Assembly (NCBI RefSeq): GCF_035581345.1
Contig: NZ_CP141608.1
Location: 1,258,001-1,322,000 of the forward strand
Direction of reading: 5' to 3'
DNA from: Pseudomonas sp. JQ170C
GTDB lineage: Bacteria > Pseudomonadota > Gammaproteobacteria > Pseudomonadales > Pseudomonadaceae
Length of the DNA stretch: 64,000 nucleotides
The notes beneath the pieces are model-generated. The model was not told the origin of the DNA, made no database searches, and was given only the letters and a program-made list of their open reading frames with translations. Every line of letters begins with the position of its first letter. Position 1 is the first letter of the stretch. Made by a program: the position numbers and the translations under genes. Positions 22,125 through 29,006 of this stretch are shown here, piece after piece.

Positions 22125-23627
22125 ATGAGCGACCTCAAACTCGATCCGCAAGACCTGCAACAGGAAGAAAACACCCTGATCGCCCTGCGCAAGGAAAAGC
22201 TTGCTGCCGAGCGTGCCAAGGGCAATGCCTTCCCCAACGACTTCCGCCGTGACAGCTACTGCAACGACTTGCAGAAACAGTATGTCGACAAGACCAAGGA
22301 AGAGCTGGAAGCTGCAGCGATTCCGGTCAAGGTTGCCGGCCGCATCATGCTCAACCGTGGCTCGTTCATGGTGATCCAGGACATGACCGGGCGCATCCAG
22401 GTCTACGTCAACCGCAAGACCCTGCCGGAAGAAACCCTGGCCGCCGTCAAGACCTGGGACCTGGGCGACATCATCGCCGCCGAAGGCACCCTGGCCCGTT
22501 CCGGCAAGGGCGACCTGTACGTCGAGATGACCAACGTGCGCCTGCTGACCAAGTCGCTGCGCCCGCTGCCCGACAAGCACCACGGCTTGACCGACACCGA
22601 GCAGCGCTACCGCCAGCGCTACGTCGACCTGATGGTCAACGAAGAAGTGCGCGACACCTTCCGCGTGCGCTCGCAGGTCATCAACCATATCCGCAACTTC
22701 CTGATCAAGCGTGACTTCCTGGAAGTGGAAACGCCGATGCTGCAGACCATCCCAGGTGGTGCCGCAGCCAAGCCGTTCGAGACTCACCACAACGCCCTGG
22801 ACATGGCCATGTTCCTGCGTATCGCGCCGGAGCTGTACCTCAAGCGCCTGGTGGTCGGTGGCTTCGAGAAAGTCTTCGAGATCAACCGCAACTTCCGTAA
22901 CGAAGGTGTTTCGACCCGGCACAACCCCGAGTTCACCATGCTCGAGTTCTACCAGGCCTACGCCGACTACGAAGACAACATGGACCTGACCGAGGAGCTG
23001 TTCCGCGAACTGGCTCAGCTGGTCCTGGGCAGCACCGACGTGCCGTACGGCGACAAAGTGTTCCACTTCGGCGAGCCGTTCGTGCGCCTGTCGGTGTTCG
23101 ACTCGATCCTCAAGTACAACCCCGAGCTGACCGCTGACGACCTGAACGACATCGACAAAGCCCGCGACATCGCCAAGAAGGCCGGTGCCAAGGTCCTGGG
23201 CTTTGAAGGCCTGGGCAAGCTGCAGGTGATGATTTTCGAGGAGCTGGTCGAGCACAAGCTGGAGCAGCCGCACTTCATTACCCAGTACCCGTTTGAAGTG
23301 TCGCCACTGGCCCGTCGCAACGACGAGAACCCGAACGTTACCGACCGCTTCGAGTTGTTCATCGGTGGCCGCGAGATCGCCAACGCCTACTCCGAGCTCA
23401 ACGACGCGGAAGACCAGGCCGAGCGCTTCATGGCCCAGGTGGCCGACAAGGACGCCGGTGACGACGAAGCCATGCACTACGACGCCGACTTCGTCCGTGC
23501 CCTGGAATACGGCATGCCGCCAACCGCCGGTGAAGGTATCGGTATCGACCGCCTGGTGATGCTGCTGACCAACTCGCCGTCGATCCGCGACGTGATCCTG
23601 TTCCCGCACATGCGTCCACAGGCCTGA
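22125..23627 (+). CDS. lysS: Lysyl-tRNA synthetase, class II
   Basis: The 500-residue protein charges tRNA-Lys. An N-terminal OB-fold anticodon-binding domain (about 65-150, [20 protein letters not shown]) precedes the class II catalytic core. Motif 1 is near [15 protein letters not shown]. Motif 2 is [20 protein letters not shown] (about 265-284). Motif 3 is [14 protein letters not shown] (about 472). The start at 22125 is the ATG of [16 protein letters not shown] strong hairpin terminator follows the stop. Confidence 0.98.
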
Positions 23628-23640
23628 GTGATCTGAACAA

Positions 23641-23664
23641 GCCGCCTTACGAGGCGGCTTTTTC
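23641..23664 (+). terminator. Rho-independent terminator of lysS
   Basis: AGCCGCCT (23641-23648), a four-base loop TACG and AGGCGGCT (23653-23660) form a perfect 8-bp stem followed by TTTT. It lies 13 bp after the lysS stop codon. Confidence 0.93.
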
Positions 23665-23717
23665 ATGCCTGAAGAAAACCTCTTCATCCGTTCCAATTCA
23701 TTGGGAGAGAACCTGCA

Positions 23718-24434
23718 GTGACTCCTGCAATGGCTCAACAAGGTGCGGCCGACGTTGCCACGGCGGTCGCCGAAAGCGTGCAGTACCAGGGGCGCAAGGC
23801 CAGCCGCCTGGGCAGTGAACAGCGTCGCCAGGACATCCTCGATGCGGCCATGCGGATTGTCGTGCGCGATGGCGTGCGCGGGGTGCGCCACCGCGCGGTG
23901 GCAGCCGAAGCGGGCGTGCCGCTGTCGGCGACCACTTACTACTTCAAGGACATCGAAGACCTGCTCACCGACACCTTCGCCCAGTACGTGGAACGCAGTG
24001 CGGCGTACATGGCCAAGCTATGGGAAAACACCGAGGTGGTGCTGCGTCAGCTCTTGTCCCAGGGCGACGGTAGCCTGCAGTGGCGGGCGCGGTTGGCCGA
24101 TGAGGTGGCGAAGATGACCGCCGATTATGTGCAGCGCCAGTTGCACAACCGTCGCGACTTTCTCATGGCAGAGCAGGCGTTTCGCCAGGAGGCATTGCTG
24201 TGCCCGCGTCTGGCCGAACTGGTCAGGCTGCACGAGCAGATTCTGTTGCGTGGCACCTGCCAATTGCTTCAGGTCGTGGGCTCGCGCCAGCCACAGCAGG
24301 ATGCGCTGGTGTTGACGGCGATTATCGAGCAGATGGAATATCAGGGGCTGCTCGACGGCTCACGTGCCGATGCGCAAGCACAGATGCTCGCTATCCTTAC
24401 CCGGTACATGCACCTGGTGCTGGCTGACGTGTGA
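23718..24434 (+). CDS. TetR-family transcriptional regulator
   Basis: The 238-residue regulator starts at GTG 23718, 9 bases after GGGAGA; the in-frame ATG at 23730 is a weaker alternative. After a 30-residue Gln/Ala-rich tail comes the TetR DNA-binding domain: RRQDILDAAMRIVVRDGVRG (helices 1-2, about 35-54) and AVAAEAGVPLSATTYYFKDI (helix-turn-helix, about 59-78). The C-terminal ligand domain is not recognisable to a ligand class. It lies just upstream of a four-gene codirectional set, with a 28-bp gap to the lipoprotein gene, and may regulate that set. Confidence 0.88.
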   Translation: MTPAMAQQGAADVATAVAESVQYQGRKASRLGSEQRRQDILDAAMRIVVRDGVRGVRHRAVAAEAGVPLSATTYYFKDIEDLLTDTFAQYVERSAAYMAKLWENTEVVLRQLLSQGDGSLQWRARLADEVAKMTADYVQRQLHNRRDFLMAEQAFRQEALLCPRLAELVRLHEQILLRGTCQLLQVVGSRQPQQDALVLTAIIEQMEYQGLLDGSRADAQAQMLAILTRYMHLVLADV

Positions 24435-24462
24435 GGCGCGGCCCCATTTCAAGGAGAACCCG

Positions 24463-25008
24463 ATGAAAGCCAGAAGTCTGTTGTTGGCGTTGTCGTTCCT
24501 GCTGCTTGGCGGTTGTCTGGTGACCTTCAACGAGCCGATGCCGGCCAATGAAGCGGCGCCCAAGGCTTTGCTCGGAAAGTGGTCGAGCAAGGACGCCTGG
24601 GGTGAGCCCCTGACCCTGCAGATCAGCCGCAGCGGTGGTAACGCCTACAAGGCGGTGGCCATCGGCAAGGACAAGAAACGTGATGAGTACGCCTTTACCG
24701 TCTCAAGGCACGGCAACCGCTGGTACCTCTCGGCGGGCGTGCCCAAGCGCCTGGGCGGCAACTTCCTGATCGGCGGCTTCGAGGTCATCGACGGCAAGGA
24801 GCTGGTGGTCTACAACCTCGACGTCGAACAGGTGAACCAGGCCGTGGAGAAGAAAGAACTCAGCGGTCGCACCTACGAGGTGCCCGAGGACAATGGCGAG
24901 GGCGTGCTGATCGACAGCCCGGCCGAGCGTGTCCTGGCTTATCTGGACGACCCGGCCAACTCCGACCTGTTTATCGAAGTGGCGCGGTTCCAGCGGGCCG
25001 GCAAGTAA
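24463..25008 (+). CDS. Conserved lipoprotein of unknown function
   Basis: The 181-residue protein begins MKARSLLLALSFLLLGGCLV, a signal peptide with lipobox LGGC, so acylation at Cys18 and outer- or inner-membrane anchoring are predicted. Mature residues (about 40-175) look like a compact beta-rich domain, with LLGKWSSKDAWGEPLTLQIS and TYEVPEDNGEGVLIDSPAER. No catalytic motif was recognised. The start at 24463 has AAGGAG at a good distance. It is the first of four closely spaced genes (lipoprotein, DUF1704, alpha/beta hydrolase, small membrane protein). Confidence 0.82.
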   Translation: MKARSLLLALSFLLLGGCLVTFNEPMPANEAAPKALLGKWSSKDAWGEPLTLQISRSGGNAYKAVAIGKDKKRDEYAFTVSRHGNRWYLSAGVPKRLGGNFLIGGFEVIDGKELVVYNLDVEQVNQAVEKKELSGRTYEVPEDNGEGVLIDSPAERVLAYLDDPANSDLFIEVARFQRAGK

Positions 25009-25032
25009 TCAAGATTATTCAAGGAGAGTAGG

Positions 25033-26310
25033 GTGGACGAGTACCAGCAGACGATACGTGCCCTGTCTGACCGCATTGTCCTGGCACAAACCCCGATACG
25101 CGTACTCGATGCGGTGAAGTGGGACGACAACATCCGCCAGGGCTTTCTCAAGGCCAAGGGCAAGGAGATGCCGGCGGTGGATCGCGCCTATTATCAGGGG
25201 CGGCCGCTGTCGTTCGATTCCAGTGCGGTCAAGCTCGAGTTCCAGAACATCGAGCGCGATATCACCCGCCAACTGGGCCAGTTCAACCCGGTCGGGCAGA
25301 TCATGCGGCGCATGTGCAAGGAGTACCGCATGGTGGTGCGCATGCTCGAAGCGCGCGGCACCGAGGATTTCGGCCTGATTTCCCAGGAGCTGTACGGGGC
25401 GGCGTCCGATGCCTTTCATGCCGGTGATCCGACCCTGGCGGACCTGGGCCTGATGCTTTCGGATTACCTGAACAACATTGATGGCCGTGGCGATCTCAAG
25501 GACGAGCCGAAGGACCTGACGGCCAAGCAGGCCGTGGAGATGCTCCAGCGGCGCTTGAACAAAGTGTTCAATGAAGCGGAAGACACCATTCGGGTCTTCG
25601 AGTCCGACGGTATCGTTGCCGATGCTGCCGCAGGCGCCGACTACATCAAGATTCGCGCCGATGCCATGTTCAACAGCCGTGACGTGCGTGCCCTCGAAGT
25701 CCATGAAGGGCTGGTGCACGTAGGCACCACCCTCAACGGCTTGAACCAGCCGATCTGCACCTTCCTGGCCAAGGGCCCGCCCTCGTCGACCGTGACCCAG
25801 GAAGGCCTGGCGATCCTGATGGAGGTGATTGCCTTTGCCTCCTACCCCAGCCGCTTGCGCAAGCTGACCAACCGCACCCGGGCCATCCACATGGTCGAGG
25901 AGGGCGCCGACTTCATGCAGGTCTACGAGTTCTTCCGCGCTCAGGGCTTCGGTATGCCGGAAAGCTACGGCAATGCCAGCCGGGTGTTCCGTGGCTCGGT
26001 GCCCAACGGGCTGCCGTTCACTAAAGACTTGTCCTACCTCAAGGGCTTCATCATGGTTTACAACTATATTCAGTTGGCCGTGCGCAAGGGCAAGCTCGAA
26101 CAGATCCCCTTGCTGTTCTGCGGCAAGACCACGCTTGAAGACATGCGCACCCTGCGCCAACTGGTCGATGAAGGCCTGGTGGAGCCGCCCAAGTACCTGC
26201 CGGAGCAGTTTCGCGACCTCAATGCGCTGTCGGCCTGGATGTGTTTCTCCAACTTCCTCAACCACCTGAGCCTGGACCGGATTGAAGCCGACTACTCGAA
26301 CATTCTCTGA
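25033..26310 (+). CDS. DUF1704 family protein with HExxxH and QEGLA motifs
   Basis: The 425-residue protein starts with GTG behind AAGGAG. It belongs to the family named 'flavohemoglobin expression-modulating QEGLA motif protein' (DUF1704). I see HEGLVH at residues 224-229 and QEGLA at 256-260. In the eukaryotic DUF1704 relatives (the MATCAP/TMCP tubulin carboxypeptidases) the equivalent HExxxH plus a downstream Glu bind catalytic zinc. By that analogy this is probably a zinc metallopeptidase, but bacterial substrates are unknown. No signal peptide is visible, so a cytoplasmic location is likely. It lies 24 bp after the lipoprotein gene, and its end overlaps the hydrolase start by 29 bp. Confidence 0.88.
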   Translation: MDEYQQTIRALSDRIVLAQTPIRVLDAVKWDDNIRQGFLKAKGKEMPAVDRAYYQGRPLSFDSSAVKLEFQNIERDITRQLGQFNPVGQIMRRMCKEYRMVVRMLEARGTEDFGLISQELYGAASDAFHAGDPTLADLGLMLSDYLNNIDGRGDLKDEPKDLTAKQAVEMLQRRLNKVFNEAEDTIRVFESDGIVADAAAGADYIKIRADAMFNSRDVRALEVHEGLVHVGTTLNGLNQPICTFLAKGPPSSTVTQEGLAILMEVIAFASYPSRLRKLTNRTRAIHMVEEGADFMQVYEFFRAQGFGMPESYGNASRVFRGSVPNGLPFTKDLSYLKGFIMVYNYIQLAVRKGKLEQIPLLFCGKTTLEDMRTLRQLVDEGLVEPPKYLPEQFRDLNALSAWMCFSNFLNHLSLDRIEADYSNIL

Positions 26311-27205
26311 CCCATGGCGCAGGCCCCTGGGCCTGTTGCTGGTGTTGCTGAGTCTGGGCGGCTGCAGTTCGTTGCTGTTCTATCCGGAGCCGGGCCAGCC
26401 GTTCACACCTGAGAAAGCCAGGCTTGAATACCGCGACGTCACCCTGACGGCAGCCGACGGCACGCGCCTGCACGGGTGGTGGCTGCCGGCCAAGCCGGGT
26501 GTGGAGGTCAAGGGCACGGTGCTGCACCTGCACGGCAACGGCGGTAACCTGGCGTGGCACCTGGGCGGCAGTTGGTGGTTGCCCAAGCAGGGCTATCAGG
26601 TACTGATGCTGGACTACCGCGGGTATGGCCTGTCCCAGGGCAAGCCGGCATTGCCCGAGGTCTATCAGGACATCGCCGCCGCGCTGGACTGGCTGGACAA
26701 AGCCCCTGAAGTACAAGGCAAGCCTCAGGTGCTGCTTGGGCAAAGCCTGGGCGGCGCCATGGCCATTCACTACCTGGCCCAGCATCCTGAGCAAGCCCGG
26801 CGCTTCAAGGCGCTGGTCTTTGACGGCGTGCCGGCCAGCTACCGCCAGGTTGGGCGCTTTGCCCTGAGCACCTCGTGGTTGACCTGGCCGTTGCAGGTGC
26901 CGCTGTCATGGCTGGTGCCGGACGGTGACAGTGCGATTCATTCGATCGCCCGGATCAAGACACCGCCCAAGCTGTTCTTCCACAGCATCGACGACCCGAT
27001 TGTGCCACTGGCCAACGGCATCCAGTTGTATCAGGCTGCGCCACCACCACGGGTGCTGCAGCTGACCCGGGGCGGTCATGTGCAGACGTTTGGCGACCGT
27101 ACCTGGCGCCAGGTCATGCTGCGGTTCCTCGACGACCCCGAACATTTCAATGGATTGCGGCGCCTGGCCGAAGTCCCCAATTACCCTGACGAGACGTCAC
27201 AATGA
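26282..27205 (+). CDS. Alpha/beta hydrolase lipoprotein
   Basis: The 307-residue protein starts at TTG 26282, inside the preceding gene. That start gives a normal lipoprotein signal, with LGLLLVLLSLGGCSS and lipobox LGGC; the in-frame TTG 26336 and GTG 26342 would truncate the signal. The alpha/beta hydrolase core has the oxyanion region LHLHGNGGNLAWH (about 79-91), DYRGYGLSQGKP, the nucleophile elbow GQSLGG (about 157-162), DDPIVPL (catalytic Asp region) and RGGHVQTF (catalytic His). It is probably a membrane-anchored esterase or peptidase facing the periplasm. Its end overlaps the next gene by ATGA. Confidence 0.87.
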   Translation: MKPTTRTFSDPWRRPLGLLLVLLSLGGCSSLLFYPEPGQPFTPEKARLEYRDVTLTAADGTRLHGWWLPAKPGVEVKGTVLHLHGNGGNLAWHLGGSWWLPKQGYQVLMLDYRGYGLSQGKPALPEVYQDIAAALDWLDKAPEVQGKPQVLLGQSLGGAMAIHYLAQHPEQARRFKALVFDGVPASYRQVGRFALSTSWLTWPLQVPLSWLVPDGDSAIHSIARIKTPPKLFFHSIDDPIVPLANGIQLYQAAPPPRVLQLTRGGHVQTFGDRTWRQVMLRFLDDPEHFNGLRRLAEVPNYPDETSQ

Positions 27206-27531
27206 GTGAAGAACGTAACGCGATTCCCCTGATTATCACCGGTGTGTGCAGCATCATCGGTACTGTCTGTGCCTTGTGGTATTACGGCTACCTGCACTTT
27301 GCCAAGCCTGAGGATGCACTGCTGTTGAGCGACTTCACCATGCTCAAGACCGTGCCGGGGGAGGACTACAAGATCTCGCTCAAACCGGCCAACCAGGTAG
27401 CCCAGTGTGTCGATGGCGTGCTGGTGCTGTTTGATATGTCGCAGAAGGGCCTGACCGGTGTGCTGGTGGACAGCAAGAAGCAGGCGGTGCGCTGCCTTGG
27501 GCAGGAAACGCCGCAGCAGGTCCAGGAATAA
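27202..27531 (+). CDS. Small single-pass membrane protein, unknown function
   Basis: The 109-residue protein overlaps the hydrolase gene by four bases (ATGA). The N-terminal segment IPLIITGVCSIIGTVCALWY (about 8-27) is a membrane anchor. The rest (about 35-109) is soluble and carries two Cys residues (about 69 and 98) that could pair if periplasmic. No family was recognised. It is the last gene of the lipoprotein/DUF1704/hydrolase set and is followed directly by a REP element. Confidence 0.72.
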   Translation: MSEERNAIPLIITGVCSIIGTVCALWYYGYLHFAKPEDALLLSDFTMLKTVPGEDYKISLKPANQVAQCVDGVLVLFDMSQKGLTGVLVDSKKQAVRCLGQETPQQVQE

Positions 27532-27534
27532 CGC

Positions 27535-27576
27535 AATCGCGGGGCAAGCCCGCTCCTACAGGCTTGCCCCGCGATC
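27535..27576. repeat. Compact REP palindrome
   Basis: A REP pair with short arms (aatcgcggggcaagcc at 27535-27550 and ggcttgccccgcgatc at 27561-27576) sits between two convergent genes. It forms a 15-bp stem, with the end pair mismatched, and probably serves as a shared 3' boundary. Confidence 0.9.
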
Positions 27577-27582
27577 ATTTCA

Positions 27583-28371
27583 TCAATGCGCCTGGCTTAC
27601 TGTACGCGGCGCCACTGGCTGGTTGTCATTGGAGATCGTCACTTCCACCCGACGATTCTGCGCCCGGCCCGAGGTGCTCGCGTTGTCGGCCACCGGAAAC
27701 TCCTTGCCGTACCCCTGGGACACGATCCGCGCAGGATCGACCCCAGCCCTCACCAAGGCCATGCGTACCGCAGCCGCGCGGCGCTCAGACAGCGACTGGT
27801 TGTAGTTGGCGCTGCCCTTGCTGTCGGTATAGCCCTCGACGATCACCTTGCGGTCAGGGTTTTCCTGGAGGAACTGCGCCAGCTTGGTGACGTTGGGCAA
27901 GGCGCTGCTCTTGAGGTTGGCCTTGTCGAAATCGAACAGCACATCGCCAAAGGTCACCAGGGTGCCCCGGTCAGTCTGCTTGGCGTTGAGGCTGTCCTGC
28001 AGCTTTTTGATCTGCGCATCGCGGGCATCGAGCCTTGCCTGGGCGCGCTGATCGGAAGCGTTGTTGAGGTTGGCCTCGGCCGTGCGCAGGGCGATGGTCT
28101 GCTTGGCCACTTCAATACGCTGGTTGGTCAGGTAGGCGAGCTGATCGACTTTCTTCTCGTCTTGCTTGTCCATGTAGGCCTTGTCGGCCTTGTTCAACGA
28201 GTCCTGGGCCTCTTTGGTTTCCAGGGCGGCGACTTTGCTCGACTGTGGGTTGCTCTGCAGGGTCGAGAAGTTGGTCCGGGCCGATTCCAGATTGGCGTTC
28301 GGCTGCGTGGAGCAGGCGGCCAGGCCAACGCTCATGGCCAGGAGGGCGGGGATAAAGATGTGTTTACGCAT
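27583..28371 (-). CDS. lptF: OmpA-family outer-membrane lipoprotein
   Basis: The 262-residue protein begins MRKHIFIPALLAMSVGLAAC with lipobox LAAC. A charged coiled-coil-like stretch (about 40-125, many Lys/Ala/Gln) precedes a C-terminal OmpA peptidoglycan-binding domain with VLFDFDKANLKSSALPNVTK (about 140-159), VEGYTDSKGSANYNQSLSER and GYGKEFPV. The start at 28371 was preferred over ATG 28380 because AAAGG lies at a normal distance. Length and the small lipoprotein partner upstream match recalled P. aeruginosa PA3692 (lipotoxin F). The symbol should not be confused with LptF of LPS export. Confidence 0.85.
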   Translation of the reverse strand: MRKHIFIPALLAMSVGLAACSTQPNANLESARTNFSTLQSNPQSSKVAALETKEAQDSLNKADKAYMDKQDEKKVDQLAYLTNQRIEVAKQTIALRTAEANLNNASDQRAQARLDARDAQIKKLQDSLNAKQTDRGTLVTFGDVLFDFDKANLKSSALPNVTKLAQFLQENPDRKVIVEGYTDSKGSANYNQSLSERRAAAVRMALVRAGVDPARIVSQGYGKEFPVADNASTSGRAQNRRVEVTISNDNQPVAPRTVSQAH

Positions 28372-28420
28372 AATGTTCATCCTTTGATCGAATACCAATG
28401 CTCGGGTCGACAGCGCAGCC

Positions 28421-28834
28421 TCACTGGGTGCTGCGCATACCTTCCTCACGCAAGTCCTGGACGCCCTCGTGGGCATCTTTCACAGCCTTCTCGGCCTTGG
28501 CGGCCTGAGCCTTGCGCTCGGCAACCCGGGCGTCCCACTCGGCCTGCTCGGCGAGCAGCTTGGCGTCGTCGTACTTTTTGTCGTGCATGGCGATTTCGGC
28601 TTGCTTGAGCTTGTCCTGGGCCGCTTTCATTTCCACGGCGGCAAACTCGGTACCGCCGGAACTCACCGCCGCATTGACGGCCGATTGGGTCACGGCGAAC
28701 TGCTCGGTGGGCGGGTTGCCGGCACAACCGGCCAGGACCAGGCTGCTGCCCAGTGCCAGCGCGGCGAGTTTGAGCCCGCGCAAGGGGGTGGACGGGGTGT
28801 TAGCGGTGCGGGTCTTCATAGTGGTCAACTCCAT
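28421..28834 (-). CDS. DUF4398 domain lipoprotein
   Basis: The 137-residue protein carries a signal with LAALALGSSLVLAGCAG, lipobox LAGC. A single Ala/Lys/Glu-rich helical domain follows (about 60-130, with TEFAAVEMKAAQDKLKQAEI), typical of DUF4398. It probably sits in the outer membrane as a helical hairpin. ATG 28834 has AGGAG 8 bases upstream; ATG 28819, five codons in, has GGAG and is an equally good alternative. Its end is 49 bp before the OmpA-type gene, so the two form a small operon. Confidence 0.85.
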   Translation of the reverse strand: MELTTMKTRTANTPSTPLRGLKLAALALGSSLVLAGCAGNPPTEQFAVTQSAVNAAVSSGGTEFAAVEMKAAQDKLKQAEIAMHDKKYDDAKLLAEQAEWDARVAERKAQAAKAEKAVKDAHEGVQDLREEGMRSTQ

Positions 28835-29006
28835 TGGATCACTCCTGATGAACAACGAATTCCGTAACATTCCATTGGCGCGACCCGCCGGTCTCGAGCA
28901 CTGCCATCAACCCGAGTCCAGGTGGGCTTTGCCATGATGGTTACAGGGTGTGACCGAGGCGTTTTTTCAATAGTTCAGAAAAATTTCCCGCATGATCGCG
29001 GCTTTT

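Follow-up and report, generated by a model that had tools for sequence, protein, structure and literature searches.

The stretch analysed here, a window of 64,000 nucleotides within the single 5.94-Mb contig of Pseudomonas sp. JQ170C, carries 3' of lysS five genes on one strand that encode, in order, a TetR-family regulator, a lipoprotein (LP1), a DUF1704 protein of the MATCAP family, an alpha/beta hydrolase lipoprotein (ABH) and a one-helix membrane protein of the PA3694 family (Table 1). The intergenic distances from the TetR gene to the PA3694-type gene are 28, 24, -29 and -4 bp, and the gene coordinates thus bear out the original prediction of a set of four genes, spaced by 24, -29 and -4 bp, with a TetR gene upstream. 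The DUF1704 protein, whose GTG start is directly preceded by AAGGAGAG, is our main subject; its assignment as a predicted metal-dependent carboxypeptidase of the MATCAP kind is well supported.

Table 1. Features of the lysS-proximal gene set, in window coordinates
Feature	Position	Strand	Details
Inverted repeat followed by T run, behind lysS	23639..23660	+	Sequence reading
TetR-family regulator gene	23718..24434	+	GTG start; Pfam TetR_N, 27.4 bits
LP1, lipoprotein	24463..25008	+	181 aa; ATG start; lipobox LGGC
MATCAP/DUF1704 metallo-carboxypeptidase-like protein	25033..26310	+	425 aa; GTG start; no export signal seen
HEGLVH, predicted metal-binding motif	25702..25719	+	Residues 224-229; model helix 215-237
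QEGLA	25798..25812	+	Residues 256-260; model helix 252-266
ABH, alpha/beta hydrolase lipoprotein	26282..27205	+	307 aa; TTG start; lipobox LGGC
PA3694-family one-helix membrane protein	27202..27531	+	109 aa; NCBIfam NF053721, 127.8 bits
44-bp palindrome at end of gene set	27534..27577	.	20 pairs; terminator scan, minus-strand terminator-like

The protein scores 448.1 bits against the PF08014 (MATCAP) profile (cut-off 27), the match beginning at residue 37, and 451.8 bits against TIGR02421 (curated cut-off 338.65), the bacterial QEGLA family to which it belongs and from which no difference was found. The same Pfam family includes, by name, human MATCAP/TMCP1 (KIAA0895L; structures 7z5g and 7z6s) and TMCP2. 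Searching solved structures with the single sequence found nothing, and searching with a profile matched 7z5g/7z6s. The predicted fold is the same as that of the solved MATCAP enzyme, with which it aligns over 305 residues; the two share HExxxH, a second Glu and the basic and polar residues of the pocket, and differ in that identity is 19% and the match is limited to human residues 140-471. Both helices that carry the motifs are predicted with confidence, the grouping of the ligands in the model being a candidate arrangement. M32 metallo-carboxypeptidases, which are a different family with a different motif, show 9-13% identity to the window protein.

The HEGLVH and QEGLA motifs occupy exactly the residues originally claimed for them, and Glu257 aligns with Glu316 in the EEG of human MATCAP, that is, with the third ligand. 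HExxxH by itself is not rare, with eight instances per 62,852 residues in the stop-to-stop frames of the window (at least 100 residues long), one of which has QEG or EEG 20-45 residues downstream; judged by sequence, the motif is above chance here because of the PF08014/TIGR02421 family match and its invariance among relatives. All 113 loci returned by the Pfam profile (not all matches; many are genus-mates, and they include the window's gene and one broken gene) have HExxxH followed by [QE]EG in their best frame. Loss of HExxxH from most bacterial homologues had been proposed as an observation that would speak against a peptidase; since the motif is kept throughout, the peptidase reading is not refuted in this way. 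Residues 224, 225, 229 and 257 are invariant both in a 53-row alignment that includes human MATCAP and in one of 82 rows, and Arg274, Arg281, Arg317, Lys331, Asp332 and Tyr335 are invariant in the former. Sixteen of the 53 and 28 of the 82 rows were retrieved by scanning for the QEGLA motif itself, so in those rows Glu257 is not independent evidence. The human protein sits on an end branch of 5.27 in the tree, and its placement is unsure because of this length. In viral contigs, 97 pattern matches yielded no true relative. One genome has as its sole match a MATCAP fragment with an in-frame stop (L060, G297:C1:1483790-1484281).

Each of the 59 genus genomes sampled, among them that of the window, carries a MATCAP gene, and six have a second copy. 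The second gene of the window genome (425 aa; G000:C1:3976098-3977171; loci L002 and L082) belongs to another branch, adjoins a short-chain dehydrogenase gene and is divergent from a chemoreceptor gene.

What might a bacterial enzyme of this kind act upon? Some indication comes from its long-form relatives, in which a MATCAP domain with identical catalytic residues is fused to a domain of the N-formylglutamate-amidohydrolase family (FGase; PF05013, E 5.8e-22 for the FGase gene of this branch). They stand in a compact operon (L102-L181) consisting of an FGase gene, the FGase-MATCAP fusion and a glutathione-synthetase-like ATP-grasp ligase gene. Of 565 loci in a named genome collection, the best 80 were chosen by closeness to a long-form protein, a choice that does not represent the family evenly; 79 of them have the fused frame, 77 an ATP-grasp frame and 71 a separate FGase frame at some position in the locus. 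In 72 the ATP-grasp gene comes next in the same orientation, no more than 50 bp away, and it lies on the opposite strand in a Polyangiaceae metagenome-assembled genome (MAG; L160) and in one from an actinomycete (L173). By record titles, many of them of MAGs, the operon form occurs in eight groups: Planctomycetota, Kiritimatiellota, Pseudomonadota (gammaproteobacteria and Rhizobiales), Acidobacteriota, Calditrichota, Gemmatimonadota, Bacteroidota and Desulfobacterales. At the loci retrieved by the Pfam profile, an ATP-grasp gene stands beside all 15 long forms of one family and beside six of the seven others examined, the seventh (L078) having an AstE/AspA deacylase-type gene in its place. Two of the ligases fall in PRK12458, NCBI's 'glutathione synthetase' subfamily (481 and 476 bits); for a third, glutathione synthetase is the closest relative of solved structure, followed by RimK-type glutamate ligases. 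Two planctomycete loci (L102, L108) contain two fused genes and three consecutive ATP-grasp genes, and in the Shewanella-type genomes that have only the long form, weak RimK-profile matches occur about 1 kb from all 15 listed long-form genes, as would fit an ATP-grasp neighbour. The window gene differs from the fused branch in having no N-terminal FGase-like domain (425 aa, by Pfam).

In the standalone form, to which the window protein belongs, the recurring ligase is RimK. The window's branch within the Shewanella-type family, delimited by our own split (E 1.6e-125 or lower), comprises 32 of 77 genomes, and in 17 of these a RimK gene that passes the NCBI cut-off lies 0.4-6.5 kb from MATCAP. 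Three genes separate the two in 11 of the 20 loci read at length (in L286, the one that was scanned, a CHASE histidine kinase, a receiver protein and a GGDEF-EAL regulator), and in four loci (L073, L259, L289 and L291) RimK is adjacent to MATCAP or one gene off. At least two RimK genes pass in 24 of the 32 branch genomes (one second copy, in G543, has a stop) versus none of 22 congeneric genomes that lack the branch (p 1.3e-8, uncorrected for ancestry). Across the phylum sample, a passing RimK is present in all 22 genomes with a standalone MATCAP (one RimK, in G270, has an in-frame stop), in two of seven with only a long form or a fragment, and in 80 of 270 without MATCAP; within the class the figures are 22 of 22 for the standalone form versus 32 of 63 (p 6.7e-6, likewise uncorrected). 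In L286-L305 the block comprising the RimK paralogue, CHASE kinase, receiver and GGDEF-EAL response regulator lies opposite MATCAP, and in many of these loci the MATCAP gene adjoins that of a 320-aa protein whose match to a Cache domain stays below threshold.

Taken as a whole, these observations argue that the DUF1704 protein is, with fair probability, a cytosolic exopeptidase of the MATCAP/TMCP family that depends on a metal, and the conjunction of metal, activity and C-terminal specificity likewise seems probable. By alignment with human MATCAP, His224, His229 and Glu257 would bind the metal and Glu225 would activate water, while the basic and polar set formed by Arg274, Arg281, Arg317, Lys331, Asp332 and Tyr335 would probably grip an acidic chain end, from which the last residue or residues would most likely be cut. 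Acidic ends made by ATP-grasp ligases come to the fore because ligases recur as neighbours, because glutamate is a common theme of FGase, RimK and tubulin tails, and because the basic residues are invariant. The best candidates among them would be the tails or chains of poly-alpha-glutamate that RimK produces; that such products are the substrate of the window's own protein is a tentative suggestion.

Several observations weigh against this assignment. In the window genome RimK (5,659,977) is 4.4 Mb from MATCAP (1,283,033), or 1.6 Mb if the chromosome is circular, and thus outside the 10 kb within which it is found in the 17 Shewanella-type genomes of the same MATCAP branch; in the other 15 of those 32 no RimK was found near MATCAP (one of them, G602, stops at a contig end). 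No ATP-grasp gene stands beside MATCAP in any of 14 genus loci (L088-L101, 15-16 kb). Co-occurrence is a weak signal because RimK is common, and all such tests ignore shared ancestry. In the family of G324, RimK passes in seven of nine genomes with the standalone form (of the two misses, one RimK scores 325.5 bits, just under the cut-off, and one is in pieces at contig ends), in 8 of 14 with only the long form and in 60 of 75 without MATCAP; counts so similar are uninformative there, and co-occurrence in that family was rejected as a signal. RimB, described as an aspartic endopeptidase and therein different from the MATCAP enzymes, already removes the glutamate tails of RpsF in Pseudomonas fluorescens, according to PMC11957791. 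As far as titles and opening lines of abstracts go, the papers searched report no activity for any bacterial member, and none deals with what the bacterial family (DUF1704, QEGLA, TIGR02421 or PA3696/PA3697) does; the accessible portions of two MATCAP papers mention neither prokaryotes nor flavohemoglobin (PMC10499314) and no bacteria (PMC13269789).

Might the family be metabolic instead, acting on small glutamyl peptides such as glutathione-like compounds or N-acylated glutamyl metabolites rather than on protein tails? This too is a tentative suggestion, given about the same weight as RimK products. The tight three-gene unit of the fused branch, with its FGase-family gene and PRK12458 'glutathione synthetase' ligase, speaks for such a role, and simple clustering of 87 loci, which itself recovered the ligase in 73 and FGase in 55, placed no further gene family in more than eight, as would suit a self-contained small-molecule pathway. 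The window's branch, by contrast, has neither the FGase domain nor the operon partners; the same clustering fixed no gene for making gamma-glutamylcysteine in the operons, most neighbours there being unannotated; and the only characterised relatives known to us act on protein tails (PMC10499314).

A different reading, given in the original prediction, assigns the enzyme to the cell envelope, where it would work with the two lipoproteins and the membrane protein under TetR control. The tight spacing of the genes is consistent with this, as is their order, which is conserved in the genus sample: of the 59 loci (one of which, L196, stops right behind the MATCAP gene), lysS is present in 59, TetR in 56, LP1 in 50, and ABH and the PA3694-type gene in 53 each. 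In PMC8707732, two-hybrid tests have the PA3694 protein contacting an EamA transporter and PA5006, and PA3693-PA3698 are described as a probable operon of unknown function. Order kept within one genus may, on the other hand, reflect common descent alone, and no export signal is seen on the enzyme, whereas LP1 and ABH have lipoboxes. LP1 is missing from nine of the 59 loci, and in the class sample of 185 genomes the window's is the only one in which LP1 was found, and two have the PA3694 family; neither was seen beyond Pseudomonadaceae. Among other Pseudomonadaceae, L064 has the full set, L062 has the enzyme with a PA3694-type gene only (near a contig end), and L063 has the enzyme beside lysS without any member of the set. 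Because of these class counts and the L062 and L063 loci, the TetR-LP1-MATCAP-ABH-PA3694 set is an arrangement of Pseudomonadaceae, of which the enzyme is independent. The five genes probably form one operon in this family, which does not require that the enzyme touch the lipoproteins or the one-helix protein. The original prediction is thus partly supported: its metallopeptidase-type family and residues stand, and the set is mostly kept in the genus (50-56 of 59 loci for each gene), but an envelope complex, rejected as the principal explanation because no export signal is seen on the enzyme and owing to the loss of partners in some species and their confinement to Pseudomonadaceae in the class sample, is unlikely.

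Nor does the upstream region of TetR contain a common operator palindrome. The window's CCAATTCATTGG palindrome, considered as a conserved TetR operator, was rejected, its type occurring in one of 56 genus upstream regions in a search limited to palindromes; the frequent repeat there resembles a lysS terminator, being a CCGCC...GGCGG-type repeat between lysS and TetR in 54 of 56 loci. The window's own repeat behind lysS is likely the lysS terminator and would separate the TetR-led unit; it is absent from the list of the terminator scan, whose sites, the 44-bp palindrome among them, are no more numerous than in shuffled sequence. That palindrome lies between convergent gene sets and is terminator-like or REP-like; the facing set comprises OmpA-like and DUF4398 genes on the minus strand (window 27583-28870) that are nearby in 54 of 59 genus loci. 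No sigma-70-like site was found within 23600-27650. The closest solved structure to the TetR protein is 3kkd (E 1.9e-76), and ABH matches Pfam Hydrolase_4 (E 1.7e-17) and has a GQSLG motif at residues 153-157. For LP1, searches of NCBIfam (to E 0.1) and Pfam (to E 0.01) gave nothing, and there was no credible solved-structure relative (two matches, both with E above 1). In eight genus loci in which ABH is missing or distant (L090, L091, L093, L189, L191, L202, L204 and L205), an AIM24-like gene of about 250 aa stands behind MATCAP, assigned to TIGR00266/AIM24 by profile in L091 and by likeness in the rest; the window has no such gene.

That the protein is a metallo-endopeptidase or other hydrolase that merely has the MATCAP fold is very unlikely. 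The notion of a catalytically dead regulator draws on nothing but the NCBI name of the family, which refers to a flavohemoglobin phenotype (one publication uses the name 'flavohemoglobin expression-modulating'), and since all 113 loci retain the residues for metal binding and catalysis it can be given hardly any credence.

MATCAP was originally identified as a tubulin detyrosinase, and we know of no tubulin substrate in Pseudomonas. The writers of tubulin tails, TTL and TTLL, are ATP-grasp enzymes too, and some bacterial relatives occur together with enzymes that attach amino acids to the ends of chains, a hint that bacteria may run a cycle of addition and removal. It is conceivable, if speculative, that bacterial MATCAPs are the erasers of such cycles, with ATP-grasp ligases as writers (RimK in one branch, the glutathione-synthetase-like ligase in the fused one), and that these cycles correspond to, and perhaps gave rise to, the tyrosine/glutamate cycle on tubulin tails, in which MATCAP acts as an eraser. 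Every sampled genome of the genus would then hold a likely tail-trimming enzyme whose relatives, in operon form, adjoin amino-acid-ligating enzymes in eight phyla, two further phyla having the ligase gene close by on the opposite strand. If this is true, a function would be attached to a protein whose NCBI name still refers to a flavohemoglobin phenotype, and tail editing of the tubulin kind may predate tubulin tails.

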